In this document: in pieces, positions 3,901-40,833 of the stretch
Position numbering within the stretch: the first letter of the stretch is position 1
How the letters are laid out: each line of letters starts with the position of its first letter
Assembly: GCA_002154345.1 (NCBI GenBank)
Contig: MUNB01000069.1
Location: forward strand, 1-47,360
From: Streptomyces griseus
GTDB lineage: Bacteria > Actinomycetota > Actinomycetes > Streptomycetales > Streptomycetaceae
Direction: 5' to 3'
DNA: 47,360 nt
Program-made: the position numbers and the translations under genes
The notes under the pieces: generated by a model
The model's database searches: none
What the model was told of the DNA's origin: nothing
Seen by the model: the letters and a program-made list of their open reading frames with translations, nothing else

Positions 3901-4065
3901 GCTGTCGGCCGCGCCGCGCAGTGCGGCGGCGTCGACCTCGCCTTCGATGTCCAGGACGATCTGCACCGTGTAGACGTCCGGCGCCTGGTGGTCGTAGAGG
4001 GCGTGGAACAGCAGCCCTTCCTGGAGCGGTGAGAGCGGAAGAATGTCCTCGATCCGGGCGTTCAC
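1..4065 (-). CDS. NRPS, C-A-T-C (3' end cut by window edge)
   Basis: This is the second peptide synthetase of the assembly line; 1355 codons are visible and the frame is still open at base 1. It starts at GTG (4063-4065) inside the stop of the upstream NRPS (GTGA overlap), and the condensation domain begins almost at once ([21 protein letters not shown]), as expected for the acceptor side of an E-to-C docking pair. Order: C (residues about 1-445, HHILLDG), A (about 470-950, [20 protein letters not shown]), T (LGGHSLL near 1000) and a second C (HHIATDGWS near 1180) running off the edge. The A pocket reads D-L-T-K-I-G-E-V-G-K, the classic Asn code. The first C looks like the DCL type, matching the E domain that ends the partner protein; the second looks LCL. 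Function is confident; the total number of modules is unknown. Confidence 0.95.
1000..4065 (-). other. NRPS module 6 (C-A-T), predicted L-Asn
   Basis: The module is translated directly from the minus strand. Pocket positions: FDLTVTG gives D235, L236 and T239; VKGTPS gives K278; LIVGGE gives I299 and G301; [11 protein letters not shown] gives E322, V330 and G331. The code DLTKIGEVGK differs from the usual Asn code only at the fifth position (V or L to I). The carrier motif LGGHSLL is of the non-epimerising type and no E domain follows. The asparagine-oxygenase-like gene at 37083-38081 could hydroxylate this residue, either as free Asn or on the carrier. Confidence 0.88.
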
Positions 4066-20900: not shown

Positions 20901-23900
20901 CCCACCGGCCGCAACCTGCCGCCACGCCGCCTCAAGATCCGGCAGCAGCACCCGCCACGACACACCGTCGACCGCCAGGTGATGCACCACCCACAACAAC
21001 CGGCCCGCACGCCCCACACCCGCGTCGAACCACACCACCTGCACCATCACACCCGACACAGGATCCAACCGGCCACGAGCCGCATCCGCCTCCACACGGA
21101 CCAGCTCCGACAACACACCCCCGTCCCCACCCGACACATCAACCCGCCGCACACACCCCTCGACCGGAACCGAACCAACGGCCCCGACCTCAAGACCCCA
21201 ACCACCATCAGCCCCGACCAACAACCGCAACCGCAAAGCGTCGTGATGATCCACCACACCCTGAACCGCCGCGCTCAACGCACCCAGACCCACACCACCC
21301 GGCACCGACACCAACACCGACTGATGAAAACCACTCACACCAGAGCCCAGCCCCCGCAGCCACTCCACCACCGGAGGCACCACCACCTCACCCACACCAC
21401 CACCGGCCTCGGAGCCGAGTGCGGCGACCGTGCGGCCGGCGTCCTCCACCGCGGCCTCCGCGATGGCCTCGACGGTCTTGAGGCGGAACACATCACGCGT
21501 GGTCAGCACCAGGCCCTCGGTGCGGGCGCGGCTGACGAGCTGGATGGACATGATGCTGTCGCCGCCGAGGTCGAAGAAGCTCGCATCGGCCGCCACCTCG
21601 TCCAGCCCCAGCACCTGCGCGAACAGCCCGCACAGCACCGCCTCACGCGCCGTCCGCGGCGCGCGGCCGCCCGCCGCCGCGCCGCCGAAGTCCGGCGCCG
21701 GAAGCGCACGCCGGTCCAGCTTCCCGTTCGGGCTCAGCGGCAGCGCGTCCAGCACCACGAACGCCGACGGCACCATGTACTCCGGCAGCACACCGGCCAC
21801 CCGGCCGCGCAGCACGGACACGTCCACCGCTCCGCCCGCACCACCGACACCACCGGCCTCCGGCACCACATACGCCACCACCGCCGGTGATCCCGGGCGG
21901 TCCTCGCGGACGATCACGGCCGCCTGGTCCACCTCCGGGTTCGCCAGGACCGCCGCCTCGATCTCGCCGAGCTCGATCCGGAAGCCGCGCAGCTTCACCT
22001 GGTCGTCGGCGCGGCCCAGGTACTCCAGGTCGCCACCCGCCGTCCACCGCACCACATCACCGGTCCGGTACATCCGCGCACCGCCACCACTGCCGTCACC
22101 ACCGCCCTCACCACCGCCGTCACCGGCGAACGGATCCGCCACGAACCGCGAAGCCGTCAGGCCCGGACGGTGCAGGTAGCCACGGGCCAGCTGCACGCCC
22201 GCGAGATAGAGCTCTCCCGGTGCTCCGGCCGGTACCGGGCGCAGCCGCGCGTCCAGGACGTACAGCCGGGTGTTCCACACCGGGCGGCCGATCGGCACGG
22301 ACGGGGTCTTGTCGTCGGGTCCGCACTGCCACCAGGTCACGTCGACGGACGCCTCGGTCGGCCCGTACAGGTTGTGGAGTTCCGGGCCGGGGCCGGGACC
22401 GTCGCCGGTGAGCACGGTGTGGAAGCGGTCGCGCAGCGGGGCCGGCAGCGCCTCGCCGCTGCAGATCACGCGGCGCAGGCCGGTGCAGCCGGCGGCGGCG
22501 GGCTCGGCGAGGAACGCCTGGAGCATGGACGGTACGAAGTGCGTGGTGGTGACGGACCGGGCCTGGATCAGCTCGGCGAGGTACAGCGGGTCCTTGTGTC
22601 CGTCCGGGCGCGCGACGACGAGCGCCGCTCCGGTGATCAGCGGCCAGAAGAACTCCCAGACGGAGACGTCGAATCCGGACGGCGTCTTCTGGAGCACCCG
22701 GTCCTCTGCCGTGAGCCGGTAGTGGTCCTGCATCCACAGGAGCCGGTTGACGATGCCGGCGTGCGGGACGACCGCGCCCTTCGGGCGGCCGGTGGAGCCG
22801 GAGGTGTAGATGACGTACGCCGGGTGGGCGGGCAGCGGAGCCGGAAGCGGTGCGGCGTGGTCCGGGGCGTGGGCAACGAGCAGCGCGGCGGTGTCGTCGG
22901 TGTCGAGGACCAGGCGCGGGGTGCCGGTCTCCGGCAGGTCGGCGGCCACCGTGGAGGTGGTCAGCGTCAGCACCGGAGCCGCGTCCTCCAGCAGGAACGC
23001 GATCCGGTCCGCCGGATAGCCGGGATCCACCGGCAGATACGCGGCACCGGCCTTCAGCACCGCAACCAGCGCCACGACGAGTTCGACGGAACGCGGCACG
23101 GCGACCGCGACGAAGCGCTCCGGGCCGACGCCCCGGCCCACGAGCAGGCGGGCCAGCCGCGCCGCGCGGTCGTCCAGTTCGGCGTAGGAGAGGGCGGTGT
23201 CCTCGAAGAGGACGGCGACGGCGTCCGGGGTGGCGGCGGCCTGCGCGGTCAGCAGCTCGGTGAGCGTGACGGCCGGTACCTCGTGGCCGGTGTCGTTCCA
23301 GGTGTCCAGCAGCAGTCGCCGCTCGTCCTCGTCGACCAGGCCGAGCGTGCCGAGGACCTGGTCGGGTCCTCCGGCGGCCAGCTCGCGGAGGTAGCGCAGG
23401 AAGCGGTGGAGGTGCGCGTCGATCGCGTCCGGTGTGTAGAGCTCCGGGTTGGCGTCGAGGTCGATCTGCAGACCGTTGCCGTCGGTCCGGTCGTAGACGA
23501 CCACGGACATGTCGTCGGCCGGTCCGACGGACAGGTTGTGGACGACGGCGCGGTGCCCGCCGAAGGTCAGGTCGTAGTCGAACATCATGATGTTGACCTG
23601 CGGTCCGACCAGCCGCTGGTCGTCGGCGAGGAGGTTCAGGTCGCGGCGCAGGTCCTCGTACCGGTAGCGCTGGTGCCGCAGGTCGCCGCGCATGGCGGCG
23701 GAGGTGTGGCGCAGCAGCTCGCCGACGGTCATGTCGTCGTGCGGTGCGAGGCGCAGCGGCAGGACGTTGGAGACCATGCCGGGGGCGGTGCGCGCGGTGC
23801 GGCCGAGCCTGGTGGTGACCGGCAGGCCGAGGACGATCTCGTCGCCGCCGGTGCAGCGCTGCAGATACGCGGCGAAGGCGGCGGCCAGCAGCGGCGGCCA

Positions 23901-24644
23901 CGGCACCTCGGCGGCGCGGGCCAGGTCGCGCAGTGCATCGGCCGACGTCCGGTCGAGGTGCGCGGTGCGGCGTTCGAGGCGGTGCGGGGTGGCGGGGCGG
24001 CCGCCGGAGAGGCCGGCGGGCTCCGGTGCGCCGGCCATCCGGTCCGTCCAGTACGCGCGGTCGGCGGCGAAGCGGTCGGAGGCGCGGTACGCGGTGTCGG
24101 CGTCGATCAGCGCCGTGAGCGGGACGAAGGGCGTCGGCGTCGGCTCGTCCCCCGCCGCCAGCGCGGTGTAGACCTCGGCGGTCCGCCGGGCCACCAGCGA
24201 GACGGTGAAGCCGTCGACGGCGCTGTGGTGGTAGGCGTGCAGCCACAGGTGGTGGTCGTCCGCCAGCCGGAACAGGACGAAGTCGAAGAGCGGATCGCGG
24301 CGGATGTCCTTCGGTGTGGCCAGCAGGTCCCGCATCCGCAGTTCCGCCGCCGCGCGCGGATCCGGCTCCGCCGAGACGTCCAGGACCGGAAGGCGCCAGT
24401 CGCCGACCGGGGCGATCCGCTGCCGGGGGCCGTCGGAGGTGTCCGTGAACCGCACGCGCAGGCACTCCGCCTCGGCCAGCACGCGCAGCAGCGCGGCCTC
24501 GAAGACCGCCGCGTCCACCCGGCCGCGGATCTCCAGGTACTCGCCGGCGTTGTAGATGACGTTGGCCGGGTCGAGTTCCTGCGCGAACCAGATCCCGGAC
24601 TGCGCGGCGGTCAGCGGCAGGAGAAGGTCCTGGACGTCGGACAA
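4062..24644 (-). CDS. Five-module NRPS with starter C domain
   Basis: A peptide synthetase of about 6860 residues. Domain order with approximate residues: C1 8-440, A1 485-977, T1 1028, E1 1082-1532; C2 1557-2002, A2 2052-2529, T2 2575, E2 2632-3076; C3 3105-3552, A3 3609-4075, T3 4125; C4 4179-4619, A4 4669-5135, T4 5185; C5 5239-5679, A5 5732-6209, T5 6259, E5 6312-6805; acidic tail to 6860. C1 begins [14 protein letters not shown] with HHSAVDG and has no upstream module, so it should accept the acyl group made by the 26-38 kb operon. The start is uncertain: TTG at 24644 directly precedes the C domain ([11 protein letters not shown]), while an in-frame ATG at 24749 would add 35 residues. 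The tail ([10 protein letters not shown]) looks like a docking donor for the next NRPS, whose GTG overlaps this stop. No thioesterase domain is present, so release happens further downstream. Confidence 0.95.
8963..9332 (-). repeat. Duplicated T-domain segment, copy in module 4
   Basis: About 370 bp covering the end of A4, T4 and the linker to C5 matches 12148-12515 with only a handful of mismatches by eye, while the flanks diverge sharply. It reads as a recent gene-conversion or module-duplication tract. The block also uses more GTG, GGT and GTT codons than its surroundings. Confidence 0.85.
9000..12130 (-). other. NRPS module 4 (C-A-T), substrate unassigned
   Basis: The pocket reads [42 protein letters not shown]. 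Asp235 is kept, so an alpha-amino acid is expected. Pro236 and Gln278 do not match any code I can name; the end of the code is loosely like some aromatic codes. The C domain begins [12 protein letters not shown] with HHIAADG, the LCL type, in agreement with the lack of an E domain in module 3. Confidence 0.78.
12148..12515 (-). repeat. Duplicated T-domain segment, copy in module 3
   Basis: Partner of 8963-9332 at an offset of 3183 bp. The encoded T3 and T4 domains are identical through [26 protein letters not shown] and [15 protein letters not shown]. Confidence 0.85.
12190..15390 (-). other. NRPS module 3 (C-A-T), probably aromatic amino acid
   Basis: The pocket reads [41 protein letters not shown]. 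It is one residue away from DASTVAAVCK, the code reported for Tyr and beta-hydroxy-Tyr domains, so an aromatic residue is the best guess. The C domain (HHLLWDGWS) is of the type that follows an epimerase. The carrier is [11 protein letters not shown] with no E domain, so the residue should stay L. The T-domain DNA is almost identical to that of module 4. Confidence 0.72.
15262..16758 (-). repeat. Duplicated E-domain segment, copy in module 2
   Basis: About 1.5 kb covering the E2 domain and the first residues of C3 is nearly identical to 19909-21405. Differences are scattered substitutions plus two small indels (for example a short RR-containing insertion after SQWR in E2). The block has a codon style of its own, rich in GTG, GGT and GGG, compared with the surrounding C and A domains. 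Confidence 0.88.
15430..20000 (-). other. NRPS module 2 (C-A-T-E), D-residue, substrate unassigned
   Basis: The pocket reads [41 protein letters not shown]. The first six positions resemble what I recall for piperazate-activating domains, but positions 322-331 do not, and no piperazate-forming enzymes are visible in the window, so I leave it unassigned. The C domain carries DHLLLDG, where the first His of the HHxxxDG motif is Asp; the second, catalytic His is kept. An E domain nearly identical to that of module 1 follows, so the product should be a D residue. Confidence 0.8.
19909..21405 (-). repeat. Duplicated E-domain segment, copy in module 1
   Basis: Partner of 15262-16758, offset about 4647 bp, that is, one module length. 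It covers E1 and the start of C2 up to [11 protein letters not shown]. The third E domain of the same protein (module 5) does not share this DNA. Confidence 0.88.
20060..24644 (-). other. NRPS module 1 (C-starter, A, T, E), predicted D-Ser
   Basis: The pocket reads D-V-W-H-I-S-L-V-D-K: FDVSVWE gives D, V and W; THFVPS gives H278; VICSGE gives I299 and S301; [11 protein letters not shown] gives L322, V330 and D331. This matches the standard Ser code closely. The carrier is LGGDSI, the form normally paired with epimerases, and a full E domain with [10 protein letters not shown] follows, so the residue should be D-Ser. The first C domain has no upstream partner and is the point of N-acylation. 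Confidence 0.85.
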
Positions 24645-25741: not shown

Positions 25742-25910
25742 CTAGGGGGTGTCTTGTCGATCAGGGTCGGTCAGGCCGCGGCGTCTGGTGCGGTGCATCG
25801 CAAGGCGCTGGAACGTCCTCATCGCGGAGCGATTCGGGCGTTTCGGCAACGCCGCGAAGTGCCGTGCCAGGCGTCGCGGACCCGGCCGTGATCGACAAGA
25901 CACCCCCTAG
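25742..25910. mobile_element. MITE (169 bp, terminal inverted repeats, CTAG ends)
   Basis: The two ends, 25742-25763 and 25889-25910, are perfect 22-bp inverted repeats beginning CTAGGGGGTGTCTTGTCGAT. Weaker inverted similarity continues inwards (GGTCAGGCCGCGGCGTCTGG against CCAGGCGTCGCGGACCCGGC). It has no coding capacity. CTAG at both ends fits a target-site duplication of the kind made by IS5-type elements. The right-hand CTAG holds the TAG stop of the MbtH gene, so the insertion left that protein intact. A degenerate copy of one end lies at 27717-27749. Confidence 0.82.
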
Positions 25911-26128
25911 ACCGTGGCGGAGTCCATCGCCACGGCGAGGCTGCTGGGCCGCATGTCGGTCCAGTTCTCCTCGATGTAGGCGAGCGCCGCGTCATGGCCG
26001 GCGTCCTTCAGGACGACCTGCCAGCCGGCCGGGACCTCGGCGAAGGCCGGCCACAGGGAGTGCTGGCCCTCGTCGTTGACGAGCACCAGGTAGGTGGCGT
26101 CCTTGTCCTCGAAAGGGTTCGTCGACAT
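25907..26128 (-). CDS. MbtH-like protein
   Basis: A 73-residue MbtH family protein, which binds NRPS adenylation domains and supports their folding or activity. The family signature is complete: [17 protein letters not shown], and [10 protein letters not shown] near the C terminus. ATG at 26128 follows GAGGAGAG. It is the last gene of the acyl operon, 68 bp after the isomerase-like gene; its upstream gap holds a tandem GAACCGAG repeat. The stop TAG is part of the CTAG end of an inserted MITE. It would serve the two NRPS proteins of this window. Confidence 0.97.
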
Positions 26129-26196: not shown

Positions 26197-26910
26197 TCAG
26201 CCGCAGCCTCCGGCGTGGCCCAGGTCTCCGGACGGGGTGGCCGACAGCGCCGCCGCCGGAACGGGAGCCGCTGAAGGCGCCGGTGCCGGGGTCGCCGCCG
26301 CGGAGCGTACGGCGTCGGCGAAGCGGTCCAGCCGGTCCAGGCCCCAGAACTTCTCGCGGCCCGCGATCAGGAACGGCGGTCCGAACACCCCGTCGCGGTA
26401 CGCCGACATCAGCGCCGCCGTGGCCCGTTCGCGCAGGGCCGGGTCCTCGGCGGCCGATCCGGCCGCGGCCGGGTCGAGACCGAGGCGGCCGGCGATCTCG
26501 GCGATCAGCGACGGATCGTTGATGTCCTCGCCGTCCTGGAAGCGGGCCCGGTAGACGAGGTCGGTGTAGGCCGGTCCCACGCCCTGGTCGGCGGCGAGGA
26601 ACCAGGCCAGGTGCGCCGTCTCCCACACCGGTTCGCGGTCGAGCGGCCAGGAGACCGCCAGCCCCCGGTCCTTCGCCAGCCTGCGGACGTCGGTCAGCAC
26701 GTAGAAGTGCTTCTCGCGGGACATCGGCGTGTAGAGGAAGGAGCCGCCGGCCTCGGCGAGCAGCCGCTCGCTCACCGGGTCCGGATCCCAGTACGGAATC
26801 CACTCCACGCGCCCGGCGACGTCCGGGTGGCGTGCGGTGAGGTCGTGATGGGCCAGCCAGGAGTACGGGCTGCGGAAATTGAAGTACCAGCGGGGGCCGC
26901 GCTGGGCCAT
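26197..26910 (-). CDS. DsbA/HCCA-isomerase-fold protein, candidate polyene isomerase
   Basis: A 237-residue protein of the kappa-class GST/2-hydroxychromene-2-carboxylate isomerase family. The N terminus reads YFNFRSPYSWLA with Ser14 where thiol oxidoreductases have CxxC, as in the isomerases, and GVFGPPFLIAG near residue 190 gives the cis-Pro loop. Members of this family are found in clusters that make cinnamoyl or polyene acyl groups on type II PKSs, where a double-bond isomerisation before ring closure is proposed. By inference it would act on the unsaturated acyl chain made by the neighbouring KS/KR/DH genes. The C-terminal 30 residues are Ala/Pro-rich and end GHAGGCG, which is unusual. 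It starts 17 bp after the ketoreductase gene. Confidence 0.85.
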   Translation of the reverse strand: MAQRGPRWYFNFRSPYSWLAHHDLTARHPDVAGRVEWIPYWDPDPVSERLLAEAGGSFLYTPMSREKHFYVLTDVRRLAKDRGLAVSWPLDREPVWETAHLAWFLAADQGVGPAYTDLVYRARFQDGEDINDPSLIAEIAGRLGLDPAAAGSAAEDPALRERATAALMSAYRDGVFGPPFLIAGREKFWGLDRLDRFADAVRSAAATPAPAPSAAPVPAAALSATPSGDLGHAGGCG

Positions 26911-26927: not shown

Positions 26928-27674
26928 CTAGAGGGTGATGCCGCCGTCGATCTGGAAGACGGAGCCGGTGATGTAGCCGGCCCGGTCCGACGCGAGGTAG
27001 CCGATGAGACCGGCGACCTCCTCCGGGCTGCCCATGCGGCCGAGCGGAATCTGCTTCAGCGCACGGTCGCGGACCGCGCCCTTCAGCGCGTCCGTCATGT
27101 CGGTGTCGATGAAGCCCGGGGCGACCACGTTGGCGCGGATGCCGTACGGTCCGGCCTCCTTGGCCAGCGCCTTGGTGAAGCCGATGATCCCGGCCTTGGA
27201 GGCGGAGTAGTTGGTCTGGCGCGCGTTGCCGTGGACCCCGGCGACCGAGGACACGTTGATCAGGTGGCCGGACTTGCGCTTCATCATCGAGAAGATGGCC
27301 GCCCGGCAGACGTGGTAGACGCCGTCCAGGTTGGTGTCCAGCACCGAGTGCCACTGCTCGTCGGTCATCAGCAGCAGCGGATTGTCGCTGGTGATGCCGG
27401 CCGAGGTGACGACCACGTCGACCGGTCCGAGTTCGTCCTCGGTGCGCTCGACCAGGTCGCGTACGGCCTTGGCGTCGGTGACGTCGGCGCGCGCCGCCAG
27501 CACGCGCACGCCGAGTTCGGACGCCTCCTTCTCCAGGGCCAGCGCCGCCTTCTCGTCCGACCGGTAGCAGAACGCCACGTCGTGGCCGTCCTGTGCCAGG
27601 CGCAGCACCGCGGCCCGTCCGATGCCCCGTGAACCGCCGCTGACGAGCGCGACGCGGGACGGCTGGTCTTCCAC
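26928..27674 (-). CDS. 3-oxoacyl-ACP reductase (FabG-type ketoreductase)
   Basis: A short-chain dehydrogenase/reductase of 248 residues that reduces the beta-keto group of ACP-bound chains with NADPH. It shows GGSRGIG at 13-19 for cofactor binding, NVSS (Ser142/143), YSASK with Tyr156 and Lys160 as the catalytic pair, and the usual ending (YITGSVFQIDGG). The GTG start at 27674 is preceded by AGAAGGAG. It is the only ketoreductase in the window and should serve both KS systems. The gene ends in CTAG. Confidence 0.93.
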   Translation of the reverse strand: MEDQPSRVALVSGGSRGIGRAAVLRLAQDGHDVAFCYRSDEKAALALEKEASELGVRVLAARADVTDAKAVRDLVERTEDELGPVDVVVTSAGITSDNPLLLMTDEQWHSVLDTNLDGVYHVCRAAIFSMMKRKSGHLINVSSVAGVHGNARQTNYSASKAGIIGFTKALAKEAGPYGIRANVVAPGFIDTDMTDALKGAVRDRALKQIPLGRMGSPEEVAGLIGYLASDRAGYITGSVFQIDGGITL

Positions 27675-27716: not shown

Positions 27717-27749
27717 CGGACCCGGCCATGATCGGTAGAACGCCCCTAG
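27717..27749. mobile_element. Degenerate MITE end
   Basis: The 33 bases ending CGCCCCTAG resemble the right end of the MITE at 25877-25910 (same CGGACCCGGCC followed by TGATCG, then a diverged end). Its terminal CTAG contains the stop codon of the dehydratase gene on the minus strand, as the intact element does for MbtH. No matching left end is visible. Confidence 0.5.
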
Positions 27750-28231
27750 GAGGCGCGGACGGCTTCGGTGAGCGCGGTCGCCGGGCGGAACGCCAGCGTG
27801 GCGCGCTCCACGGTCATGACGCGCTCGCCGTCGACCAGCGCCTCGCCCTCGAAGATCATCGTGTCGGGGAGCACGCGCAGGACGCGGACGTGGTGCACGA
27901 CCACGTCGCCGGGCAGCACCGGGCGCTCGAAGCGGACGTCGCTGACGCCGCCGAAGAGCATGACCCGGCCGCTCAGCACGTCCGGGTTCGGCTGGTCCCA
28001 GGTGGCGAGAACGCCGGCCGCCTGGCACCAGGACTCGGTCAGCAGGACCTCCGGGTAGCGGTAGCCGTCCGGGGGTGCGTCCTGCGGAAGGTCCGCGTAC
28101 CAGGGCTCGTTGTTGGTGACGGCCTTGCGCGCGACCAGCCGCTCGCCCGCCTTCAGCTCCTCGACGCGGTCCAGCAGCAGCATCGGATGGCGGTGCGGCA
28201 GCAGGCCGCGCAGTTCGGCGGAGCCGATCAT
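27746..28231 (-). CDS. FabZ-like hotdog dehydratase subunit, catalytic His missing
   Basis: A 161-residue hotdog protein related to 3-hydroxyacyl-ACP dehydratase. The start LLPHRHPMLLLDRV and the helix motif TESWCQAAGVLA with Glu66 fit FabZ. The segment that should read GHFPGxPxxPG instead reads ADLPQDAPPDGYRYPE, so the catalytic His is absent. The neighbouring gene at 28228-28683 has that His, so I infer the two form one heteromeric dehydratase, as described for aryl-polyene systems. The ATG overlaps the stop of that gene (ATGA). Confidence 0.87.
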   Translation of the reverse strand: MIGSAELRGLLPHRHPMLLLDRVEELKAGERLVARKAVTNNEPWYADLPQDAPPDGYRYPEVLLTESWCQAAGVLATWDQPNPDVLSGRVMLFGGVSDVRFERPVLPGDVVVHHVRVLRVLPDTMIFEGEALVDGERVMTVERATLAFRPATALTEAVRAS

Positions 28232-28683
28232 CCGAGACCTCCGGAGGTGAGGCGGAGCCGGACCGTGGCGGCCGTTCCGCGGACCGTCCGCACGGTCGCC
28301 GCGACCCGCCAGGCATCGTCGCCCCCGGTGTCGCCGGCGGCGGTCAGGGCGAGCTCCACGGACAGTTCGTCGCCCGGCAGCACCGGACCGCGGAACCTCG
28401 CGGACTCGATCGCGGCGAGCCGGGCCGACGGCAGGACGAGCAGGGCGCTGCGGTGGACGCATTCGATGACGCAGACACCGGGAAAGATCGGGAAGCCCGG
28501 ATAGTGACCGGCGAAGAACGCCTCGTCCGGATCGGCCAGGCACGCGGTGGCGGCGCTCAGCGAACCGTCGTCGGCGCGCTGCGGCGTACCGACGATCCGC
28601 ACCGGCGCGGAGACCGGCGACGCGGCGCGCGGCGGTGTCCCGACGGCCGGGGCGTCCGTGCGGAGCCCGCCGGCGACCGTCAC
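28228..28683 (-). CDS. FabA/FabZ-like hotdog dehydratase with full catalytic pair
   Basis: A 151-residue hotdog protein. GHYPGFPIFPGV carries the catalytic His60, and CVIECVHR carries Glu74. The PHRxPxLLLDR entry of FabZ is missing and is replaced by an Ala/Pro-rich N terminus of about 40 residues. It would dehydrate 3-hydroxyacyl-ACP to the enoyl stage; since no enoyl reductase is encoded nearby, the chain should keep its double bonds. It starts at GTG (28683) overlapping the ACP stop, and its own stop overlaps the next dehydratase gene. Confidence 0.88.
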   Translation of the reverse strand: MTVAGGLRTDAPAVGTPPRAASPVSAPVRIVGTPQRADDGSLSAATACLADPDEAFFAGHYPGFPIFPGVCVIECVHRSALLVLPSARLAAIESARFRGPVLPGDELSVELALTAAGDTGGDDAWRVAATVRTVRGTAATVRLRLTSGGLG

Positions 28684-28940
28684 CGGGGGTCCGCCAGCTT
28701 CTGCGCTATCAGGCCGTACGCGGCGCGCAGGCAGGTCACCTGCTTCAGCTCCTCCTCGCGGAGTTTGACGCGGTACCTCTTCTCCAGCACCACGACGACC
28801 TCCAGGGCCATCAGCGAGTCGATCTCCAGGTCGTCGGTGAAGCTCGTGTCGTCACCGACGTCCGCGGTCTCGACGTCGAGCACCTCGGCGATGATCTCGC
28901 GCAGCTGCTCCAGGTCCAGTGTCTGCACGGCGGATGTCAT
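28680..28940 (-). CDS. Acyl carrier protein (second in operon)
   Basis: An acidic 86-residue carrier protein. LEIDSLMALEVVVVLEKRY contains the phosphopantetheine attachment site at Ser42. ATG at 28940 follows AGAGAGG. It is coupled by GTGA overlap to a dehydratase gene and lies next to the degenerate KS-like gene. The other ACP (36771-37022) is beside the intact KS genes, so the two carriers may serve different phases of chain building. Confidence 0.93.
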   Translation of the reverse strand: MTSAVQTLDLEQLREIIAEVLDVETADVGDDTSFTDDLEIDSLMALEVVVVLEKRYRVKLREEELKQVTCLRAAYGLIAQKLADPR

Positions 28941-29000: not shown

Positions 29001-30074
29001 TCATCGGCCGAGCCGCAGGACCGCGCATCCCGCCTCGCCGTCCCGGTCCACCGCCGTGACGACGGCGACCCGTCCTCGTACGTCGTCCTGCTCGGCGAGC
29101 GCGAGCACGGCGGCCAGCTGGAACATCGCGGCCGCACCGGCCGTGTCGCCGATCAGCCGGGACACGCGGTTCACCGCCGCCGGGTCGAAGTGCTGGTCCA
29201 GCACCGCCTGTTCGGCCGCTCCGAGAGCGCCCGCCGCACCGCTCGGCGCGACGGTCCACACATCGGCCGGCTCCGCACCGGCGCGGTCCAGGGCGCGGCG
29301 CACACAGCGGCCGAGCACCGCCGCCGCATCGCCGACCGCGTCGAACACGCCGACCTCGACGGCCTCCACGGTGGCGTGGGCGCCGCCCGTCGCGGCCGCC
29401 TCCGGCTCGACGCGCAGCATCACACAGCCCTCGCCGTGCACGACGCCGGTCTCGTCCTCGCCCCTGCTGTGCAGGTCCAGCCAGGCGCGCGCGTCCGCGT
29501 ACTCCTCGACCGCCCCGCACAGCACGGTGCGCGCCCGGTCGGCGTTGAGCAGCCGCTGCGCGTACTTCAGCGCGTGCAGTCCGGAGACGCGGCCGCCGGC
29601 GATGGTGGTGTTCGGGCCCTTGAGCCGGTGGCGGATGGCGCACTGTCCGGCGGCGCAGTTCATCACGGCGTTCGGGAAGCGGGCCGGGTCGACGAAGTAC
29701 GGCTTCTCCGAGACGAGTCCGCTGCGCGTGAAGTCCATCATGCTCTGCACGCTGCCGGAGGTGGTGCCGAGCACCAGCGCCACGTCCTCGCCGTCCGACG
29801 CGGTGTGCGGGTCCGGCGACTCGTCGATCAGCCGGCCGACCGCCGACACCGCGAGGCCGGTGACCCGGTCCATGGCCCGGGTGCCCTTGCGGCCGAGCGC
29901 GGCCGCCGGGCTGAAGCCCGGTACGAGGCAGACCTCGTCGTCCGGCGTACGCCACTGCTCGCGGTCCACCGCCGTGACGGCGGACCGTCCCGCGTGGAAC
30001 CCGCTCACGAAGGCCTCGCGGCCGATGCCGAACGGCGAGACGGCGGACCAGGCGGAGATCACGGTCTTGGTCAT
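29001..30074 (-). CDS. Ketosynthase-like protein without catalytic residues
   Basis: A 357-residue thiolase-fold protein alignable with FabF-type KS across its length, but with the whole triad lost: the Cys position is Arg162 (GPNTTIAGGRVSGLHALKYA), the HGTGT segment reads VAPSGAAGA, and the KSxxGHT segment reads RLIGDTAGAA. It cannot condense on its own. Likely roles are chain-length factor or structural partner of one of the two intact KSs. It is separated by 49 bp from the DsrE-type genes and by 60 bp from the ACP. Confidence 0.88.
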   Translation of the reverse strand: MTKTVISAWSAVSPFGIGREAFVSGFHAGRSAVTAVDREQWRTPDDEVCLVPGFSPAAALGRKGTRAMDRVTGLAVSAVGRLIDESPDPHTASDGEDVALVLGTTSGSVQSMMDFTRSGLVSEKPYFVDPARFPNAVMNCAAGQCAIRHRLKGPNTTIAGGRVSGLHALKYAQRLLNADRARTVLCGAVEEYADARAWLDLHSRGEDETGVVHGEGCVMLRVEPEAAATGGAHATVEAVEVGVFDAVGDAAAVLGRCVRRALDRAGAEPADVWTVAPSGAAGALGAAEQAVLDQHFDPAAVNRVSRLIGDTAGAAAMFQLAAVLALAEQDDVRGRVAVVTAVDRDGEAGCAVLRLGR

Positions 30075-30123: not shown

Positions 30124-30543
30124 TCACAGGAAGCTGACCATCCGGTAGTGCGGCCACCAGCCGGACAGCTGGGCCGAGGTGACCGGGCGGACGGCGGCGT
30201 CCACCAGGTCGGCGGGGCCGAGTCCGAGGTCCGTGAGGTCCTCCTCCTGCACGAGGACCCGCACCCCGGCGGCGAGCAGCGCGCGCAGGTCGCGGCGCTG
30301 GTCGCTGAGCGTGTCCAGGACGCGCCCGCCGAACGTCAGCGGAGCGGTCTCCGCCGTCCGCAGCGCGCAGGTCACCGCGGGTCCGCGCAGCAGGATGTCC
30401 ATGCCGCCGAGCTGGCGGTGGAGTTCCACGGCCATGTAGAGCACGTCGAAGAACTGCTTCTCCACCGCGCCCCGGTAGGCCCGTTCGACGATGCCGAGGA
30501 CCCGGCCGTCGAGCGTCGTGTCCCGGTCCGTCGCCGCCGTCAC
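30124..30543 (-). CDS. DsrE/DsrF-superfamily protein (sulfur-relay-like), third of three
   Basis: A 139-residue protein resembling the TusC/DsrF class: a predicted strand-helix core (MDILLRGPAVTCAL) and a late block VRVLVQEEDLTDLGL, then a C-terminal strand (YRMVSFL). The position matching the reactive Cys of TusD-type subunits holds no Cys; the one Cys (in AVTCAL) is elsewhere. The GTG start shares one base with the stop of the preceding DsrE-like gene (TAGTG). With its two neighbours it could form a DsrEFH-like hetero-oligomer. Family membership is by fold-level pattern; function in this cluster is unknown. Confidence 0.65.
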   Translation of the reverse strand: MTAATDRDTTLDGRVLGIVERAYRGAVEKQFFDVLYMAVELHRQLGGMDILLRGPAVTCALRTAETAPLTFGGRVLDTLSDQRRDLRALLAAGVRVLVQEEDLTDLGLGPADLVDAAVRPVTSAQLSGWWPHYRMVSFL

Positions 30544-30950
30544 TAGAGCACCCCCACGAACAGCGTCCGGCCGGCCGCCTCGACGTTCTCGGCGAACGCC
30601 CCGGGGGCGCGGAGCCTGACCTCCGGAACGTGGGCGACCGCACCGCGGTCGTCGCTGCAGAAACGGCAGCCGTACCAGTGGAACCGGCCCGGGTGCGCCG
30701 CGAGCATGCCGCGGATGACGGTGGCGGTCGACGGATAGTCGACGGACCAGTCGGCGAGGTTGCGGGGCTTCGACTCGCCGAGGCCCTCCTGGGTGAGCAG
30801 CGTCGCGTAACCGCAGGCCCACACCTGCACACTGGCCTCGCGCCGCAGCAGCGACTCCACGAGCCGCAGCACGCTGGTGACCAGGTCGGAGCCGTGCGGC
30901 GAGCCCATGAGCGTGATCAGCACATCGGTACGCGGAATGCCTCTGGCCAT
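30543..30950 (-). CDS. DsrE-superfamily protein with Cys95/Cys98, second of three
   Basis: A 135-residue protein with the DsrE/TusD pattern: VLITLMGSPHGSDLVTSVLRL at the N terminus, a central VQVWACGYA strand, and HWYGCRFCSDDRG. Cys95 falls where TusD has its persulfide-carrying Cys, and Cys98 makes a CxxC. In known systems such subunits accept and pass on sulfane sulfur. It starts one base after its DsrE-like neighbour ends, and its TAG stop overlaps the next start. A sulfur-transfer role is inference; a scaffold or redox role is also possible. Confidence 0.7.
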   Translation of the reverse strand: MARGIPRTDVLITLMGSPHGSDLVTSVLRLVESLLRREASVQVWACGYATLLTQEGLGESKPRNLADWSVDYPSTATVIRGMLAAHPGRFHWYGCRFCSDDRGAVAHVPEVRLRAPGAFAENVEAAGRTLFVGVL

Positions 30951-30951
30951 C

Positions 30952-31281
30952 TCAGTGCCACACCACCTTCACCGAGGCGTCCAGCACGCTGTCGGCGATC
31001 TCGTCCATGTCCACCAGCCGGCCGCCCTCGACCAACTGCTTCTCCTCCAGGCCGCGTTGGCGGAAGGAGTAGCGGTCGACGAGGAGCTGCCCGCCGGTGC
31101 GCAGATAGTCCGCCAGCTCCGGCAGCACTCCGGGCAGCGCGCCGAGCACGCCTTCCTGGAGGAGGAAGAGCCGGGTGCGGTGCCCGCCGTCCGCCAGCGC
31201 CGCGGCGTCGCGGACGAAGGCCGCGCAGCCGCGGCCGCCGCTCCACGGTCCCCGGGTCTCGATGAGGAGGTGGCCGCTCAT
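30952..31281 (-). CDS. DsrE/DsrH-superfamily small protein, first of three
   Basis: A 109-residue protein. HLLIETRGPWSGGRG, then a helix (CAAFVRDAAALADGG) and RTRLFLLQEGVLG, fit the first half of DsrE-like domains; the C terminus ends VKVVWH, as DsrH/TusB proteins end with a conserved Trp. It is translationally coupled to the upstream hotdog gene (ATGA). Cys19 lies early in the chain and not at the usual reactive position. It is probably the smallest subunit of a three-protein complex with the next two genes. Confidence 0.65.
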   Translation of the reverse strand: MSGHLLIETRGPWSGGRGCAAFVRDAAALADGGHRTRLFLLQEGVLGALPGVLPELADYLRTGGQLLVDRYSFRQRGLEEKQLVEGGRLVDMDEIADSVLDASVKVVWH

Positions 31282-32282
31282 GCGCCGACGGCCGGTTCGC
31301 CGCGCAGCGCCCGCAGGACCGGCTCGTCGAAGTTGACCAGGTGCCAGTCGGTGCGGCTGTCGATGACGGCGTAGCCGTGCGTGACCTGGCCGGTGGCGGT
31401 CTGGACGAGCCGGCCCTCGCGCACCACGTAGGTGTCGAAGCGCGAGCGGTAGAGGAAGTCCTTGAAGATCTCCTCGACCGTGTAGACGACGTACAGGTCC
31501 TCCTCCATGAGGGCCTCGTCGAGGATGCGGATCTTCGAGTGCGAGCAGGCCGGGATCCACTTGCGGTCGTCCAGGAGCGTCTTGATGGAGAGGCCGCGGT
31601 CGGCGAGGAACAGGTCGACGACCTCCTCCATCTGCCGCAGATAGCCGGACATCTGGAGCCGCTCGGTGAAGTGGCAGTACGGGTAGGGGATGCGCCACTT
31701 CCAGCCGAAGGCGTTCTTCCCCTCGGTGAGCAGGCTGAGCACCGGGTCGGGGCCGGTGGTGCCGTGGCCGTCCGACAGCGGCTCGGGAGCGGTCGGCGTC
31801 ACGTGCGCGCCGGGCTCGGAGGTGGCGATCCGCTCGACGGCGAACGGCCGCAGCTGCTCCGGTACCGGCTCGGCCGGGAAGGTGGTGTCGATGCGCAGCA
31901 CGACGCGCGCCCGGCCGGTGACGGCCTTCACGGACGCGCCGTCGCGGTCGACGTTCAGCGTCACGCGGAAGAGCAGTGCGTCGCCGTCCTTGGAGACCGG
32001 CTCGACGTCGGCGGTCACCAGGTCGTCCAGGTGCAGCGAGCTGAGGATGCGGACGTCCAGCTCGGCGAAGTCCAGGCCGAGGCCCAGCTCCTCGTAGAGC
32101 ACGCGGCTCGACAGGCCCGCGGCTCTGAAGTGTTCCAGGACGGCTTCCTCGACCAGGTAGTTGTCGTGCTTGAAGCCGATCCAGGTGCAGATGTTGGAGC
32201 CCTCGTAGCGCGGGCGCAGCGACACGCGCGTCGGCGTGTGCAGGAGCGTCTTGATCCGGGCGTCGGTCACAACGATGGTCAT
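31278..32282 (-). CDS. Double-hotdog acyl-thioesterase-like protein
   Basis: A 334-residue protein that reads as two hotdog domains: one at about 10-150 (SNICTWIGFKHDNYLVEEAV, then LDFAELDVRI and LHLDDLVTADVE) and one at about 195-325 (YCHFTERLQMSGYLRQMEEV, then SKIRILDEALMEEDLYVVY). The pattern fits acyl-ACP or 4-hydroxybenzoyl-CoA-type thioesterases. It might release or transfer the finished acyl chain, or trim wrong chains. I cannot name the catalytic residue with certainty. ATGA overlaps link it to the hydrolase gene before it and the DsrE-like gene after it. Confidence 0.68.
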   Translation of the reverse strand: MTIVVTDARIKTLLHTPTRVSLRPRYEGSNICTWIGFKHDNYLVEEAVLEHFRAAGLSSRVLYEELGLGLDFAELDVRILSSLHLDDLVTADVEPVSKDGDALLFRVTLNVDRDGASVKAVTGRARVVLRIDTTFPAEPVPEQLRPFAVERIATSEPGAHVTPTAPEPLSDGHGTTGPDPVLSLLTEGKNAFGWKWRIPYPYCHFTERLQMSGYLRQMEEVVDLFLADRGLSIKTLLDDRKWIPACSHSKIRILDEALMEEDLYVVYTVEEIFKDFLYRSRFDTYVVREGRLVQTATGQVTHGYAVIDSRTDWHLVNFDEPVLRALRGEPAVGA

Positions 32283-33397
32283 GGGGCTGGTTCTCCAGGC
32301 GCTCGGTCTCCGGGCCGCTGCGAACGCGCCCGCGAGGACAGGGACATGACGAAGTCGCCGACGACGGAGGAGAACTCCGCCGGCCGCTCCGTCATCAGGA
32401 AGTGGCCGCAGTCCGTGAGGACGCGGATGTACGCGTCGGGCAGGTCGGCGGTCAGATCGCGGCCCTCGGCCGGATCCACCGCGATGTCCAGCGCACCGCA
32501 CACGACGGCGACCGGCACGCGGATCCGCCCGGGCCGGAGCCACGGGGTGCGCAGATAGCTGTCCACGAACCGCAGCCAGCCGTACGGACCGATCCGGTCG
32601 CAGACCCGGCGCGCCATGGAGAGCTGGATCTCCGGATCCAGCCGGCCGCCGGAGTGGACCCGGATGCCCTCCTCCATGATCCGCTCGAACTCCGCCGGAT
32701 AGCGGGTCATGGAGTCCCAGTCGAACTCCTCGGCCGTACGCCGGTAGAACGGCGAGACGAGCACCAGGCCCTCGATGCCGTACCGCTCGAACGGGTCGCG
32801 TCCGGCGTCCAGTTCGCGGTCGAGGAGCGCCAGCGTCTGGAGCGCGGAGAACGAGTGGGCGACGACCGTGCCCGCGCCGCCGGGTACGCCGTCCAGCGCC
32901 TCCGCCAGCCAGCGGGTGGCGTCCGGGGCACGGTGCCAGCCGCCGTCGCCCGCGCCGCGCCACGGCAGGTCGGCGGTCCACAGCTCCTGGCCGGCCGGCC
33001 GGTGCGCGAGGAAGGCGTCCCAGACGGTGGCGCTGTTGCCGAGGCCGTGCAGCAGGAGCATCCGGCCGGTGACCGGACCGCCCGCCACCGGATGGCGGTG
33101 CAGCTCGACCGGCGGCCCGGTGCCGGTGGCGAACCCGCGCGGCACCACGGCGGTGCGCGGCCGCGCGGACCGTACGGGAGCGGTGACGGGCGGCTCCTGC
33201 CGTACGGGAGCGGCGGTGGCCGGTTTCGGCCGTACGGGAGCGGTGGCCGTCGTCGTCCGCCGTACGGGAGCAGACGCGGTCGGCGTCTCCGGTGGGGCCG
33301 TCGTGGCGACCGCCTCCGGCCGTACGCGCGGTGCCGGAAGCGTGTCCGGCAGCGCCGGTGCCACAGGTCCCGCGGCCGTCCCGGTGGCGCTGCTCAT
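32279..33397 (-). CDS. Alpha/beta hydrolase with repetitive N-terminal extension
   Basis: A 372-residue protein. After about 105 residues of low-complexity, Pro/Ala/Arg-rich sequence comes a standard alpha/beta-hydrolase: MLLLHGLGNSATVWD (oxyanion), VVAHSFSALQTL (nucleophile Ser in AHSFS), VVCGALDIAVDP (acid region) and TDCGHFLMTERP (His). The extension contains several APVR units encoded by a 30-bp tandem repeat. The substrate is unknown; in this operon a thioester or ester of the acyl chain is plausible. ATG at 33397 has AGGAGG upstream and overlaps the preceding stop. Confidence 0.85.
   Translation of the reverse strand: MSSATGTAAGPVAPALPDTLPAPRVRPEAVATTAPPETPTASAPVRRTTTATAPVRPKPATAAPVRQEPPVTAPVRSARPRTAVVPRGFATGTGPPVELHRHPVAGGPVTGRMLLLHGLGNSATVWDAFLAHRPAGQELWTADLPWRGAGDGGWHRAPDATRWLAEALDGVPGGAGTVVAHSFSALQTLALLDRELDAGRDPFERYGIEGLVLVSPFYRRTAEEFDWDSMTRYPAEFERIMEEGIRVHSGGRLDPEIQLSMARRVCDRIGPYGWLRFVDSYLRTPWLRPGRIRVPVAVVCGALDIAVDPAEGRDLTADLPDAYIRVLTDCGHFLMTERPAEFSSVVGDFVMSLSSRARSQRPGDRAPGEPAP
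33171..33290. repeat. 30-bp tandem repeat inside the hydrolase gene
   Basis: CGTACGGGAGC occurs at 33171, 33201, 33231 and 33261, exactly 30 bp apart, and a decayed version (CGTACGCGCG) lies at 33321. On the coding strand each unit gives APVR plus six variable residues. Such in-frame repeats usually vary in copy number between strains. Confidence 0.9.
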
Positions 33398-34338
33398 CCG
33401 GCCTCCTGCGGTCCGACCAGCAGCAGGCCGGCCGCCGGCCCCGCGTCGCCGCCGCCGGTCACCGCGTACACGGGGCCGACGCCGCCCGCCGCGAAGTAGC
33501 CCGCCGAGGCCGCGCACTGGAGGACGCCGAGCGCACCGGAGGCGCCGGGCCAGCGGCCCGCGACACCGAGGTCGCGGACTCCGGCCGGTCCGCCGGCCGC
33601 CACGGCGTCGCCGTCCGGCGACTGCCAGGCCGTCGGAGGCCGGCCGCCGAGCGCGTCGAGCGCCTCGACGCAGTCCGGCAGCCCGCCGGAGCGCGCATGG
33701 CCGCCGACCACGGCGACCGCGCGCACACCGCGCACCCCGGCGGAGCGCCGGTGCTCCAGCACCAGTGCCGCCGCTCCGTCGAACGCCTGCGTACGGCCGG
33801 TGAGCCTGCGCGCCGGATCGGTGTCCGGCTCCGCGCCGATCACCACGGCCCGGTCCGCGCGGCCCGCCGCGATCAGCGTCATGGCCCAGCGCACCGCGTC
33901 CGTTCCGGAGGTCTCGCCGTTGCACAGCATGAGGTTCGGTCCGGTGAGGCCGAACCTGATGGCGACCGACGAGGCGAGCACATTGCTCGACGCGTTCGGC
34001 AGGTCCATCGGGCTGGTGGCCCCCGCGGTGTCGGCGGCGATCGTGTCGACGGTGCGGCAGATGGTGTCGAGGTTGCCGTAGTTGGAGCTGGCGACGACGG
34101 CCGTACGGTCGCCGCCGAGCGCGGTCCCGTCCTCGTCCAGGAGCCGCGCCTCGGTCAGCGCGTCCCGGACCGCGCAGTAACCGAGCTGCGTGGCACGGTC
34201 CTTGTAGCGCAGCCCCTTGCGGCCGAGCCGGGCGCGCGGATCGACCGGCGCACTGTCCGGACGCGGTTCGCCCAGCAGGTCCGCCGGGGTGTCCACGCCC
34301 GCCAGGGCGATGCCGATGCCGGTCACGAGGATGCTCAT
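33394..34338 (-). CDS. KS-like protein, candidate chain-length factor (Cys replaced by Glu)
   Basis: A 314-residue thiolase-fold protein, shorter than a full KS. The nucleophile region reads TGPNLMLCNGETSGTDAVRW: aligned on GPN and SG, the active-site Cys position is Glu142, whereas classical chain-length factors often have Gln there. The C-terminal half is compressed; HGTGT is missing, although GASGALGVLQCA survives. It sits directly after two intact KS genes with ATGA coupling, the usual place of the beta subunit in type II systems, so I infer a KS-CLF heterodimer with one of them. Confidence 0.83.
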   Translation of the reverse strand: MSILVTGIGIALAGVDTPADLLGEPRPDSAPVDPRARLGRKGLRYKDRATQLGYCAVRDALTEARLLDEDGTALGGDRTAVVASSNYGNLDTICRTVDTIAADTAGATSPMDLPNASSNVLASSVAIRFGLTGPNLMLCNGETSGTDAVRWAMTLIAAGRADRAVVIGAEPDTDPARRLTGRTQAFDGAAALVLEHRRSAGVRGVRAVAVVGGHARSGGLPDCVEALDALGGRPPTAWQSPDGDAVAAGGPAGVRDLGVAGRWPGASGALGVLQCAASAGYFAAGGVGPVYAVTGGGDAGPAAGLLLVGPQEAG

Positions 34339-35474
34339 CGCACGGCCTCCACCACGGCGACGGCGTTGATACCGCCGAAGCCGAACGCGTTGATCTGCGC
34401 CACGGACAGCTCGGCCTCGGCCGCCTCACCGGTGACGAAACGGAAGTCGGCCGCCTCCTCCACCGGATGGCTCAGGCCCGGGGTCGGCGGTACGCGGCCG
34501 GTGTCGAGCGCGTTCAGCGCGGTGACCAGGCCGATCAGCCCGGAGGCTCCGGAGGTGTGGCCGGTCATCGACTTGATCGCGGTCATCAGCGGCACACCGA
34601 CGTGCGCTCCGAAGGCCTCGGCCACCGCGGTGGCCTCCGCCTCGTCGTTGAGCAGCGTGCCGGTGCCGTGCAGCATCACCAGGTCGACGTCCTCCGGCTT
34701 GACGCCGGCCCGCTCGTGCGCCTGCCGGATCGCCGCGGCGATGCCCCGGTGGTCCGGCGCGGTGGCGTGGTGCGCGTCGCAGTTCAGTCCGACCGACCGC
34801 AGCCGGCCGCGGACCGCGCCGGTACGGCTGCCGGTGTCGCGGCGGATCACGACGGCCGCCGCGCCGTCGCCCATCACCGCGCCGGTACGGTCCCGGTCGA
34901 ACGGCCTGACCCGGTCCGGCGGCACCGGATGCACCCGCTCCACCAGCCCGTACATGCTCTCGGTGAGCACGTCCACACCGGCCGCGATCACCGTGTCGGC
35001 CTCGCCGAGCTCCAGCAGATCGGTGCCCATCGCCAGCGCGTACAGCGAAGCGGAGCAGGCGTTGGCGAAGGTGTGCACGGAGGTCGTGCCGAAGCGTTCG
35101 CGCAGCGCCCGGCCGAAGTGCAGCCGCTCCGCGTCCATCGGCAGGCCGTCGCGCCACCACAGTTCGGCCGAGCGCAGCTCGCGCAGACCGGTGCCGACGA
35201 GCACCGGAACACCGGAGAGGTCGTCGCCGAGACCGGCGTCGCGCGCGGCCTGCGCCACCGCGTCCAGCAGGAGGGCCGTGGCCCGGCCCGGCACATCGGC
35301 GCCGGGTACCGGGCGGTCGTCGATCTCGTACGCGTACCGCGCGTTGTACCGCGAGCGGTCGAAGCCGCGCAGCTCGGCGTGGGCGCTGCGGCCGGCGCAG
35401 AGCGCCTCGAAGAGTTCGCGCGGATCACGGCCGACGCCGGCCGCCGCGCCCGTTCCGGTCACCAGCCAGCTCAT
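34335..35474 (-). CDS. Beta-ketoacyl-ACP synthase (intact, second KS)
   Basis: A 379-residue FabF-type KS with all catalytic residues: Cys140 in FANACSASLYALAMG, His269 in HGTGTLLND, and His306 in KSMTGHTSGASG. It differs considerably from the KS before it and has a shorter N terminus (MSWLVTGTGAAAGVG). It overlaps both neighbours by ATGA. It may form one of two condensing pairs with the degenerate KS-like proteins. Confidence 0.93.
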   Translation of the reverse strand: MSWLVTGTGAAAGVGRDPRELFEALCAGRSAHAELRGFDRSRYNARYAYEIDDRPVPGADVPGRATALLLDAVAQAARDAGLGDDLSGVPVLVGTGLRELRSAELWWRDGLPMDAERLHFGRALRERFGTTSVHTFANACSASLYALAMGTDLLELGEADTVIAAGVDVLTESMYGLVERVHPVPPDRVRPFDRDRTGAVMGDGAAAVVIRRDTGSRTGAVRGRLRSVGLNCDAHHATAPDHRGIAAAIRQAHERAGVKPEDVDLVMLHGTGTLLNDEAEATAVAEAFGAHVGVPLMTAIKSMTGHTSGASGLIGLVTALNALDTGRVPPTPGLSHPVEEAADFRFVTGEAAEAELSVAQINAFGFGGINAVAVVEAVR

Positions 35475-36724
35475 CGGCCCTGCCCCTCGTACTTGCCGAG
35501 GACGACGACCGCGTTGTTGCCGCCGAACGCCAGACCGTTGTTGACGACGATGTCGAGATCGGCGTCCACGGCCTCGTTCGGTACGCAGTCGACGTCGCAC
35601 TCGGGATCGGTGCTCACGTGGTTGATGGTCGGCGGGATGAAGCCGTGCACGATCGCCAGCGAGCAGGCGATGGCCGACAGCGCGCTGGCCGCGCCCATGG
35701 TGTGGCCGATCATCGACTTGATGGACACGGTGCGCGGCGGCTCGCCGAAGACCTCGCGGATGGCCTGCGCCTCGGTGATGTCGTTGGCCCGGGTACCGGT
35801 GCCGTGCGCGGAGATCAGGTCGACCTGCTCCGGCTTGACCCCGGCGTCGTCCAGCGCCAGTTGCATGGCGCGGCCGACGCTCGCGCCGTTCGGCGCGACC
35901 TGGTGGTGCGCGTCGCAGTTCAGTCCGTAGCCGAGGACCTCGGCGTAGATCCTCGCGCCGCGCGCCAGCGCCGACGACAGGCTCTCCAGCACCAGTACGC
36001 CGGCGCCCTCGCCGGTGAGGATGCCCTTGCGGTCCACGTCGAAGGGCTGGCAGCGCTCCGGTGCGATGGTGCCCAGCCGGTAGAAGCCGGCGAAGGTCTT
36101 GCGGCACAGCGCGTCGGCGCCGCCGCACAGCGCGAAGTCGACCTCTCCGGCGCGCACCGCGTCGTAGCCGTAGCCGATGGCGTAGTTGCCGGCCGCGCAG
36201 GCCGTCGGAATGGTGACGGCCTCCACATCGGTCAGTCCGAGCTCGTGCGCGATGGCGGTGGAGAGCCGGCCCGCCCGGACGCGCCGCGCGACCACCGGAT
36301 CCATGTGCTCGGATCCGGCGCGGATCTCGGTCTCGACCAGGCTGTCGAGGTCGCGGGACTCGCCGTCGGTGGTGCCGATGGAGATGAGACCGCGTTTGGT
36401 CCGCAGCTCCTCCGGAAGCAGGCCGGCGTCCTGTGTGGCCATCCGGGCGGCGGCGACGGAGAACCGCGCCGCCCGGCCCAGCTGTTCGAGATCCGTGTCA
36501 CGGATCCAGTCGGCCGGTTCGAAATCGCTGATCTCGCAGCCGTTGGCGTAGGCGAAGCCCGTGGTGTCGAAGCTGGTGATCGGCTTGGCGCCACTGCGCC
36601 CGGCCCGCAGCCCCTCGGCGAAGGCGGCTGCGCCCACACCGATGCTGGAGAACACTCCGAACCCGCTCAGGACCACTCGCTGCGCACCGTCCGGATCCGC
36701 CGGATCCACGGAGAACGACGTCAT
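35471..36724 (-). CDS. Beta-ketoacyl-ACP synthase (intact, first KS)
   Basis: A 417-residue FabF/KS-alpha-type enzyme that elongates ACP-bound chains with malonyl units. The catalytic triad is Cys176 (IPTACAAGNYAIGYG), His307 (HGTGTRAND) and His341 (KSMIGHTMGAAS). The length is normal. It starts 46 bp after the first ACP gene, giving the ACP-KS-KS-CLF order. With the ketoreductase and dehydratases but no enoyl reductase in the operon, repeated use would make a polyene. Confidence 0.95.
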   Translation of the reverse strand: MTSFSVDPADPDGAQRVVLSGFGVFSSIGVGAAAFAEGLRAGRSGAKPITSFDTTGFAYANGCEISDFEPADWIRDTDLEQLGRAARFSVAAARMATQDAGLLPEELRTKRGLISIGTTDGESRDLDSLVETEIRAGSEHMDPVVARRVRAGRLSTAIAHELGLTDVEAVTIPTACAAGNYAIGYGYDAVRAGEVDFALCGGADALCRKTFAGFYRLGTIAPERCQPFDVDRKGILTGEGAGVLVLESLSSALARGARIYAEVLGYGLNCDAHHQVAPNGASVGRAMQLALDDAGVKPEQVDLISAHGTGTRANDITEAQAIREVFGEPPRTVSIKSMIGHTMGAASALSAIACSLAIVHGFIPPTINHVSTDPECDVDCVPNEAVDADLDIVVNNGLAFGGNNAVVVLGKYEGQGR

Positions 36725-36770: not shown

Positions 36771-37022
36771 TTACCAGCCGGCTATCTCGGCGACGACCTG
36801 GTAGACGCTCTTGAGGTTGACCATGCGGCCGAGCTGGGCCTGGTCGATCTCGATGTGGAACTCCTTCTCCAGCGACGCGAGGATCTCGATCGCGCGGAGC
36901 GAGTCGGCGTCGTGGTCCTCCTTGAAGAGGCTGGTCTCCGTGACGTCCTCGGGCTCGATCTCCAGGATGTCGCAGACGATGTCCTTGATCTTTTCCTGGC
37001 GCTCGTCGATGGCGGTCGTCAT
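36771..37022 (-). CDS. Acyl carrier protein (first in operon)
   Basis: An 83-residue carrier protein with the attachment site HDADSLRAIEILASLEKEF, Ser41. I chose the ATG at 37022 because AAGGAG lies 7 bases upstream; a TTG two codons earlier is less likely. The gene lies between the oxygenase and the intact KS genes and is probably the main carrier for chain extension. Confidence 0.94.
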   Translation of the reverse strand: MTTAIDERQEKIKDIVCDILEIEPEDVTETSLFKEDHDADSLRAIEILASLEKEFHIEIDQAQLGRMVNLKSVYQVVAEIAGW

Positions 37023-37082
37023 CGTCAATCTCCTTGGTGTGGGGTGGTGTCGAGGCGGGCCGCACGGTGCGGCCGGCCGGGG

Positions 37083-39473: not shown

Positions 39474-39484
39474 CGCGGGCCGGT

Positions 39485-40222: not shown

Positions 40223-40282
40223 ACCGGAACCTCTTTCTCACCCCGTCGGGCGACGGGGACGGTAGGGATGCACACACATGCG

Positions 40283-40828: not shown

Positions 40829-40833
40829 TCGAC

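Follow-up and report, generated by a model that had tools for sequence, protein, structure and literature searches.

Sulfur-relay complexes of the DsrEFH/TusBCD type are α2β2γ2 hetero-hexamers, and we take Cys78 of TusD to be their persulfide cysteine. Highly reducing type II PKS gene sets for cinnamoyl lipids or CCNPs have been described for gla (PMC9381841) and kitacinnamycin (PMC6510318), as far as the available parts of both sources go. According to the available text of PMC9321520, which cites Shi et al. 2022 (doi 10.1021/jacs.2c02855), Kcn17-Kcn18-Kcn19 and YssX catalyse 6π-electrocyclic ring closure. The original prediction for the contig analysed here (47,360 bases, G000:C656, hereafter the window) had singled out three small adjoining genes, T1, T2 and T3, as the best candidate for an undescribed system, on the premise that no type II PKS/NRPS pathway was known to have a job for such a trio. 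The report on Kcn17-18-19 speaks against this premise, and the claim of an undescribed system was not borne out, since gene order equates the trio with Kcn17-18-19. We consider it very likely, by this correspondence in gene order, that the trio of the window is a three-protein cyclase of the Kcn17-Kcn18-Kcn19 type, belonging to a cluster for a cinnamoyl-containing nonribosomal peptide, and that by analogy it would share the cyclase activity reported for Kcn17-19. The DsrE/F/H trio is real, but it is probably an already reported ring-closing enzyme and not a new sulfur system.

The three genes are consecutive on the minus strand, running from 31281 to 30124, and neighbours either overlap slightly or stand one base apart. 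T1 (30952..31281, 109 aa) is a DsrH/TusB-like subunit in the kcn19 position, T2 (30543..30950, 135 aa) a DsrE/TusD/YchN-like subunit in the kcn18 position, and T3 (30124..30543, 139 aa) a third DsrE-superfamily subunit in the kcn17 position. T1 matched Pfam DsrE (E=2.7e-4), as did 27/32 of its homologues; DsrH was matched by 14/32 homologues, and V-W-H at the C-terminus was invariant. In hhalign single-pair comparisons, T1 aligned with E. coli TusB (E=8e-5, probability 61) and the profile of T3 with that of T1 (E=5.9e-8, probability 95), while a weak DsrE match was found in 7/32 T3 homologues. Between T3 and E. coli TusC, hhalign detected no similarity (E=0.029, probability 1.7), nor did it detect a relation of T1 or T3 to T2 (E 0.11 and 0.17). 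The DsrE fold typical of DsrEFH/TusBCD systems was found for T2; AlphaFold runs covered T2 and T3 as monomers, with alignments of three rows (window, L009 and L010). Profile searches of the PDB with the trio gave a best match of only E=0.011, and the one match from a single-sequence PDB search with T2 was judged to be chance. The expectation of three small adjoining DsrE/F/H-type genes was therefore confirmed by Pfam DsrE matches, hhalign and a fixed T1-T2-T3 order; compared with the DsrE, TusC and TusB families, T1 came out as TusB-like, T2 as DsrE/TusD-like, and T3 as related to T1, with no detectable TusC similarity.

The gene content of the surrounding operon confirmed its earlier reading as an acyl-PKS operon and corresponded to published cinnamoyl PKS gene sets. 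Upstream of the trio and in the same direction were an Fe(II)/2OG oxygenase (37083-38081; VioC/clavaminate synthase/GntD-like, with strong matches that all fell under curated cut-offs), acyl carrier protein 1 (36771..37028; Kcn4/GlaD position, by eye and synteny), ketosynthases KS1 (35471..36724; TACAAG motif, GlaE position) and KS2 (34335..35474; NACSAS motif, GlaF position), both with active Cys motifs, as read by eye from the ORFs, and the CLF-like KS3 (33394..34338; GlaG position by synteny, KS Cys motif absent by eye). An alpha/beta hydrolase (32279..33397; Pfam Abhydrolase_1, E=7.7e-10) and a double-length hotdog thioesterase-like protein (31278..32282; Pfam 4HBT_2, E=1.9e-7, in the C-terminal half and a weak YbgC match in the N-terminal half) then led into T1. 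Downstream, likewise on the minus strand, followed KS4, a CLF-like partner (29001..30074; Pfam ketoacyl-synt, E=4.4e-13, GlaQ position), acyl carrier protein 2 (28680..28940; by eye and synteny), dehydratases DH1 (28228..28683; ApeI/FabZ-like, Pfam ApeI-like and FabA) and DH2 (27746..28231; FabZ-like, Pfam FabA, with NCBIfam FabZ under cut-off), a ketoreductase (KR; 26928..27668; Kcn14/GlaU position, by eye and synteny), and a DsbA-fold protein in the cis-trans isomerase position (26197..26910; Kcn15/GlaV/Sky27, Pfam DSBA E=5e-22, equated with GlaV by gene order). An MbtH-like protein (25907..26128; Pfam MbtH, E=1.1e-27) and a large NRPS of about 6860 aa (4062..24644; ORF by eye, start chosen by script) completed this side, with a further NRPS at the left edge of the window. 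A cinnamoyl highly reducing type II PKS and a cis-trans isomerase thus occur in one cluster, and KS, KR, DH, ACP and isomerase genes lie beside NRPS genes, the combination that marks CCNP clusters in the available part of PMC6510318.

The window is the whole contig, so that the cluster is truncated on either side. A cispentacin-like pathway, raised by NCBIfam AmcE and AmcG matches, was set aside because these matches were far under cut-off. The Fe(II)/2OG oxygenase, which perhaps hydroxylates an amino acid, was present among 33 trio regions only in the window and in Streptomyces sk2.1. By eye, the ORFs at 38245-46316 form a dense block of regulators that includes a SARP-like gene, IclR-like genes and a number of helix-turn-helix genes.

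The link to kitacinnamycin was drawn through genome G140, whose unadjusted ORF list was compared with kcn numbers from the available parts of PMC6510318 and PMC9321520 using one offset of 25. The run from the ACP to the isomerase comprises twelve genes, which fell on kcn4-kcn15; within it, kcn4 corresponded to the ACP, kcn7 to a member of the KS family and kcn14 to the KR. The numbers kcn21-23 corresponded to three NRPSs, of which only the last had TE motifs, kcn27 to a P450, kcn28 to a gene that by eye looked glycosyltransferase-like, and kcn33 to an isomerase homologue. By the same offset as all these anchors (4, 7, 14, 21-23, 27, 28 and 33), the G140 trio fell on kcn17-19, and its proteins shared 44, 66 and 53% identity with T1, T2 and T3 of the window, respectively. 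One detail did not fit: kcn7 is a KS in the available text, but the G140 gene there was most like the CLF-like KS3 of the window. Rough motif counts in the G140 NRPSs (12 for C or E, and 6 for A when strictly defined) did not confirm the nine modules. From this gene order, we infer that the G140 cluster is that of kitacinnamycin or closely related to it. The window resembles kitacinnamycin in having three adjoining genes within a type II PKS/NRPS cluster of the cinnamoyl kind, although the G140 trio runs divergently next to the NRPS genes, whereas that of the window is inside the PKS operon. The isomerase homologue in the kcn33 position (G140:C1:6337865-6338518) is the second DsbA-fold homologue of this kitacinnamycin-like cluster.

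T2 matches were found at 37 places in 35/394 Streptomycetaceae genomes, the window's own included, as well as in two named loci, Streptomyces sp. sk2.1 and Actinokineospora xionganensis. In a phylum-wide sample scored for T2 only, 2/396 genomes had a match, namely the window's own and one with a 41-residue match (E=5.9e-4). Six Streptomyces plasmid records in PLSDB (256-737 kb; L076, L077 and L078 among them) also held T2 homologues, and the record NBC_01431 had the same coordinates as G314. The three plasmid records that were viewed were linear, with the trio inside PKS/NRPS clusters and annotated as hypothetical or DsrE family protein. The genome survey suggested in the original prediction was made on 37 loci, comprising the two named ones and 35/36 non-window places, with G039 (a 4 kb contig) left out: T1, T2 and T3 adjoined in the same order in 37/37, spaced by -11 to 50 bases. 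Placement varied: some trios lie within the main operon, others follow a third KS/CLF pair, others accompany an ACP and DHs at a distance from the core, and others stand by themselves in divergent orientation. The isomerase was present in 34/35 T2 genomes vs 79/394 overall (Fisher p=6e-26), and the sole T2 genome outside these 79 was G039. Twenty-nine of the 37 T2 places had the isomerase at most 60 kb away; the other eight had none within 60 kb on the contig, and seven of these had none anywhere on it. In the Actinokineospora locus (L010), KS4 and ACP2 flank the 3' part of ORF 11493-13385, which by eye resembles an acetyl-CoA carboxylase carboxyltransferase.

Some sister clusters lack the trio. 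Isomerase-bearing genomes (79/394, counted by strong matches with best E<=6.2e-37; ten more genomes at E 4e-13 to 4e-11 were left uncounted) comprised 34 with T2 and 45 without, and a T2 profile that finds the window's genome found 0/45 of the latter. Around the isomerase in 35/45 such genomes (20 to 40 kb each), the best match for T1, T2 or T3 was only E=0.068. The absence of T2 from these 45 genomes implies that ring closure is done there by another enzyme or not at all. The trio is missing from G377 and G285, where KS4 comes 27 bases after the hotdog gene and the rest of the operon is present. The existence of such sister clusters is consistent with the available text of PMC9321520, according to which no homologue of Kcn17-18-19 was found in the epoxinnamide cluster. 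In a quick KS1 tree of 59/68 regions (nine without a suitable KS1 ORF were dropped, seven with and two without the trio), trio presence needed at least six changes, three of them forced by starred branches, in a tree that carries a long-branch warning. Trio-less G255 adjoined trio-bearing G343, which suggests that the trio was lost in G255, although the G255 assembly is in ~240 contigs. The trio is a marker that splits cinnamoyl clusters with a three-protein cyclase from those without.

A family comparison found no trio-replacing gene common to the trio-less clusters at >=38% identity. The idea of the trio as a substitute for a phytoene-dehydrogenase-like FAD oxidoreductase (FADox) was not supported, FADox being present in 6/33 trio regions and 2/17 trio-less core regions (chosen as having most of the operon). 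We rejected the trio as a mark of the third KS/CLF pair, since trio without pair and pair without trio both occur. In the trio-less twins G377 and G285, a phytoene-dehydrogenase-like FAD oxidoreductase lies directly after the isomerase.

In the Kcn17-19-type cyclase that we propose, the KS/CLF pairs, KR and DHs would build an ACP-bound polyene, in which the DsbA-fold isomerase would set a Z double bond. The trio, assembled like DsrEFH/TusBCD, would hold the polyene in a pocket and fold the chain for 6π-electrocyclization to a six-membered ring; oxidation would then give the benzene ring of an o-substituted cinnamoyl group, and the starter module of the NRPS would take the acyl group. Against this reading count the failure to find a FADox homologue in the window's cluster, truncated as it is by the contig ends, the absence of T2 from 45 isomerase-positive genomes, and the eight T2 places with no isomerase within 60 kb on the contig. 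Ring closure has been reported for the relatives Kcn17-19 in the available text of PMC9321520, while the other steps, and the joining of T1, T2 and T3 in one hetero-oligomer, are what we infer. This reading assigns a job to genes annotated as hypothetical protein or DsrE family protein, and raises the questions of whether the conserved cysteines are catalytic and by what route a fold for sulfur transfer acquired a pericyclic ring closure. A DsrE relation of the ring-closing trio is not stated in the available parts of PMC9321520, PMC9381841, PMC6510318, PMC10054270, PMC13311259, PMC11446937 and PMC12664062, which is no claim that it is unpublished; among the literature matches listed, titles with 'dsre' were on other matters (many probably DsRed), none on a cinnamoyl PKS.

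The cysteines of T2 bear on a variant of this cyclase. Cys46, Cys95 and Cys98 were invariant in 38/38 T2 sequences (window and 37 loci), whereas the T1 and T3 alignments had no conserved Cys, consistent with the earlier view that a persulfide-type Cys occurs only in the middle protein. The active-site-type Cys of DsrE/TusD subunits is present in T2, with Cys95 in register with Cys78 of TusD and its spacing to Arg-Gly being that of Cys78 in both TusD and YchN; a CxxC is common to T2 and YchN (PDB 1jx7), although in E. coli the latter had no DsrE-type neighbour within the 5 kb viewed. Cys95/Cys98 with Cys46 may take part chemically, either by nucleophilic attack that fixes the alkene geometry or by forming a disulfide to accept the two electrons of aromatization, making ring closure and oxidation one machine. 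The invariance of the three cysteines and the match of the CxxC to YchN speak for it, as does the lack of a FADox homologue in 27/33 trio regions of 15-80 kb. However, the remaining six trio regions have FADox, 15/17 trio-less core regions also lack it, and the cysteines may be structural or ancestral, as YchN has the same CxxC. We regard this thiol chemistry as possible but rather doubtful. The broader picture that it would imply is equally tentative: a sulfur-relay complex turned carbon-ring-forming enzyme, in which the ancestral persulfide Cys, today part of a CxxC and joined by a third invariant Cys, would do new chemistry coupled to 6π closure, either isomerizing an alkene with the help of a thiol or driving aromatization by a disulfide, with no flavin.

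It is quite improbable that the trio is a non-catalytic scaffold or chain holder that organises ACP, DHs and KS/CLF with no chemistry of its own. Such a role would suit G188 and G221, where the trio genes lie between ACP and DH-like genes, but the trio is missing from otherwise matching clusters, T2 has three invariant Cys, and the available text of PMC9321520 reports a cyclase role for Kcn17-19.

A TusBCD/DsrEFH-like relay of persulfide sulfur to the product, a thiocarboxylate or a cluster enzyme would explain the DsrE fold and the T2 Cys in register with TusD Cys78, and TusA homologues occur in 35/35 trio genomes (which we count neither for nor against a sulfur role), but we hold it to be very improbable and rejected it as the main reading, since the acceptor DsrC/TusE was found in 0/35 trio genomes (E. 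coli control positive), TusA is far from the trio (e.g., 4 Mb in G140), globisporamic acid, a product of the gla cluster, where the gene count predicts the trio, is sulfur-free (C20H30O2), and a cyclase role is reported for Kcn17-19 in the available text of PMC9321520. Addition of sulfur by the operon is accordingly unlikely, and the alternative offered by the original prediction, recruitment for a non-sulfur role, is the more likely one. The trio resembles DsrEFH/TusBCD in fold, in the Cys95 of T2 and in having three distinct subunits from adjoining genes, and differs in its PKS context, its extra Cys46 and Cys98, the lack of DsrC/TusE, a T3 that is not detectably like TusC, and its T1-T2-T3 order, in contrast to tusD-tusC-tusB.

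The gla cluster of Streptomyces globisporus C-1027 has the same enzyme set in the available part of PMC9381841, where the trio is not named. Between CLF3 and CLF1, its lettering runs from L to P, which would suit SDR, hydrolase, T1, T2 and T3 as in G352, G294 and G216, and this match of five letters to five genes suggests that gla carries the trio. In contrast to the window, gla has three KS/CLF pairs, its product is a chain-extended fatty acid, and the acyltransferase-like gene between KS4 and ACP2 in G352, G294 and G216 is absent from the gla lettering in that text. Near the isomerase or KR in G352, G294, G216 and G061b, a small SRPBCC/polyketide-cyclase-like protein (by eye) and extra hydrolases recur in clusters with the third KS/CLF pair, the former being a candidate for another cyclase.
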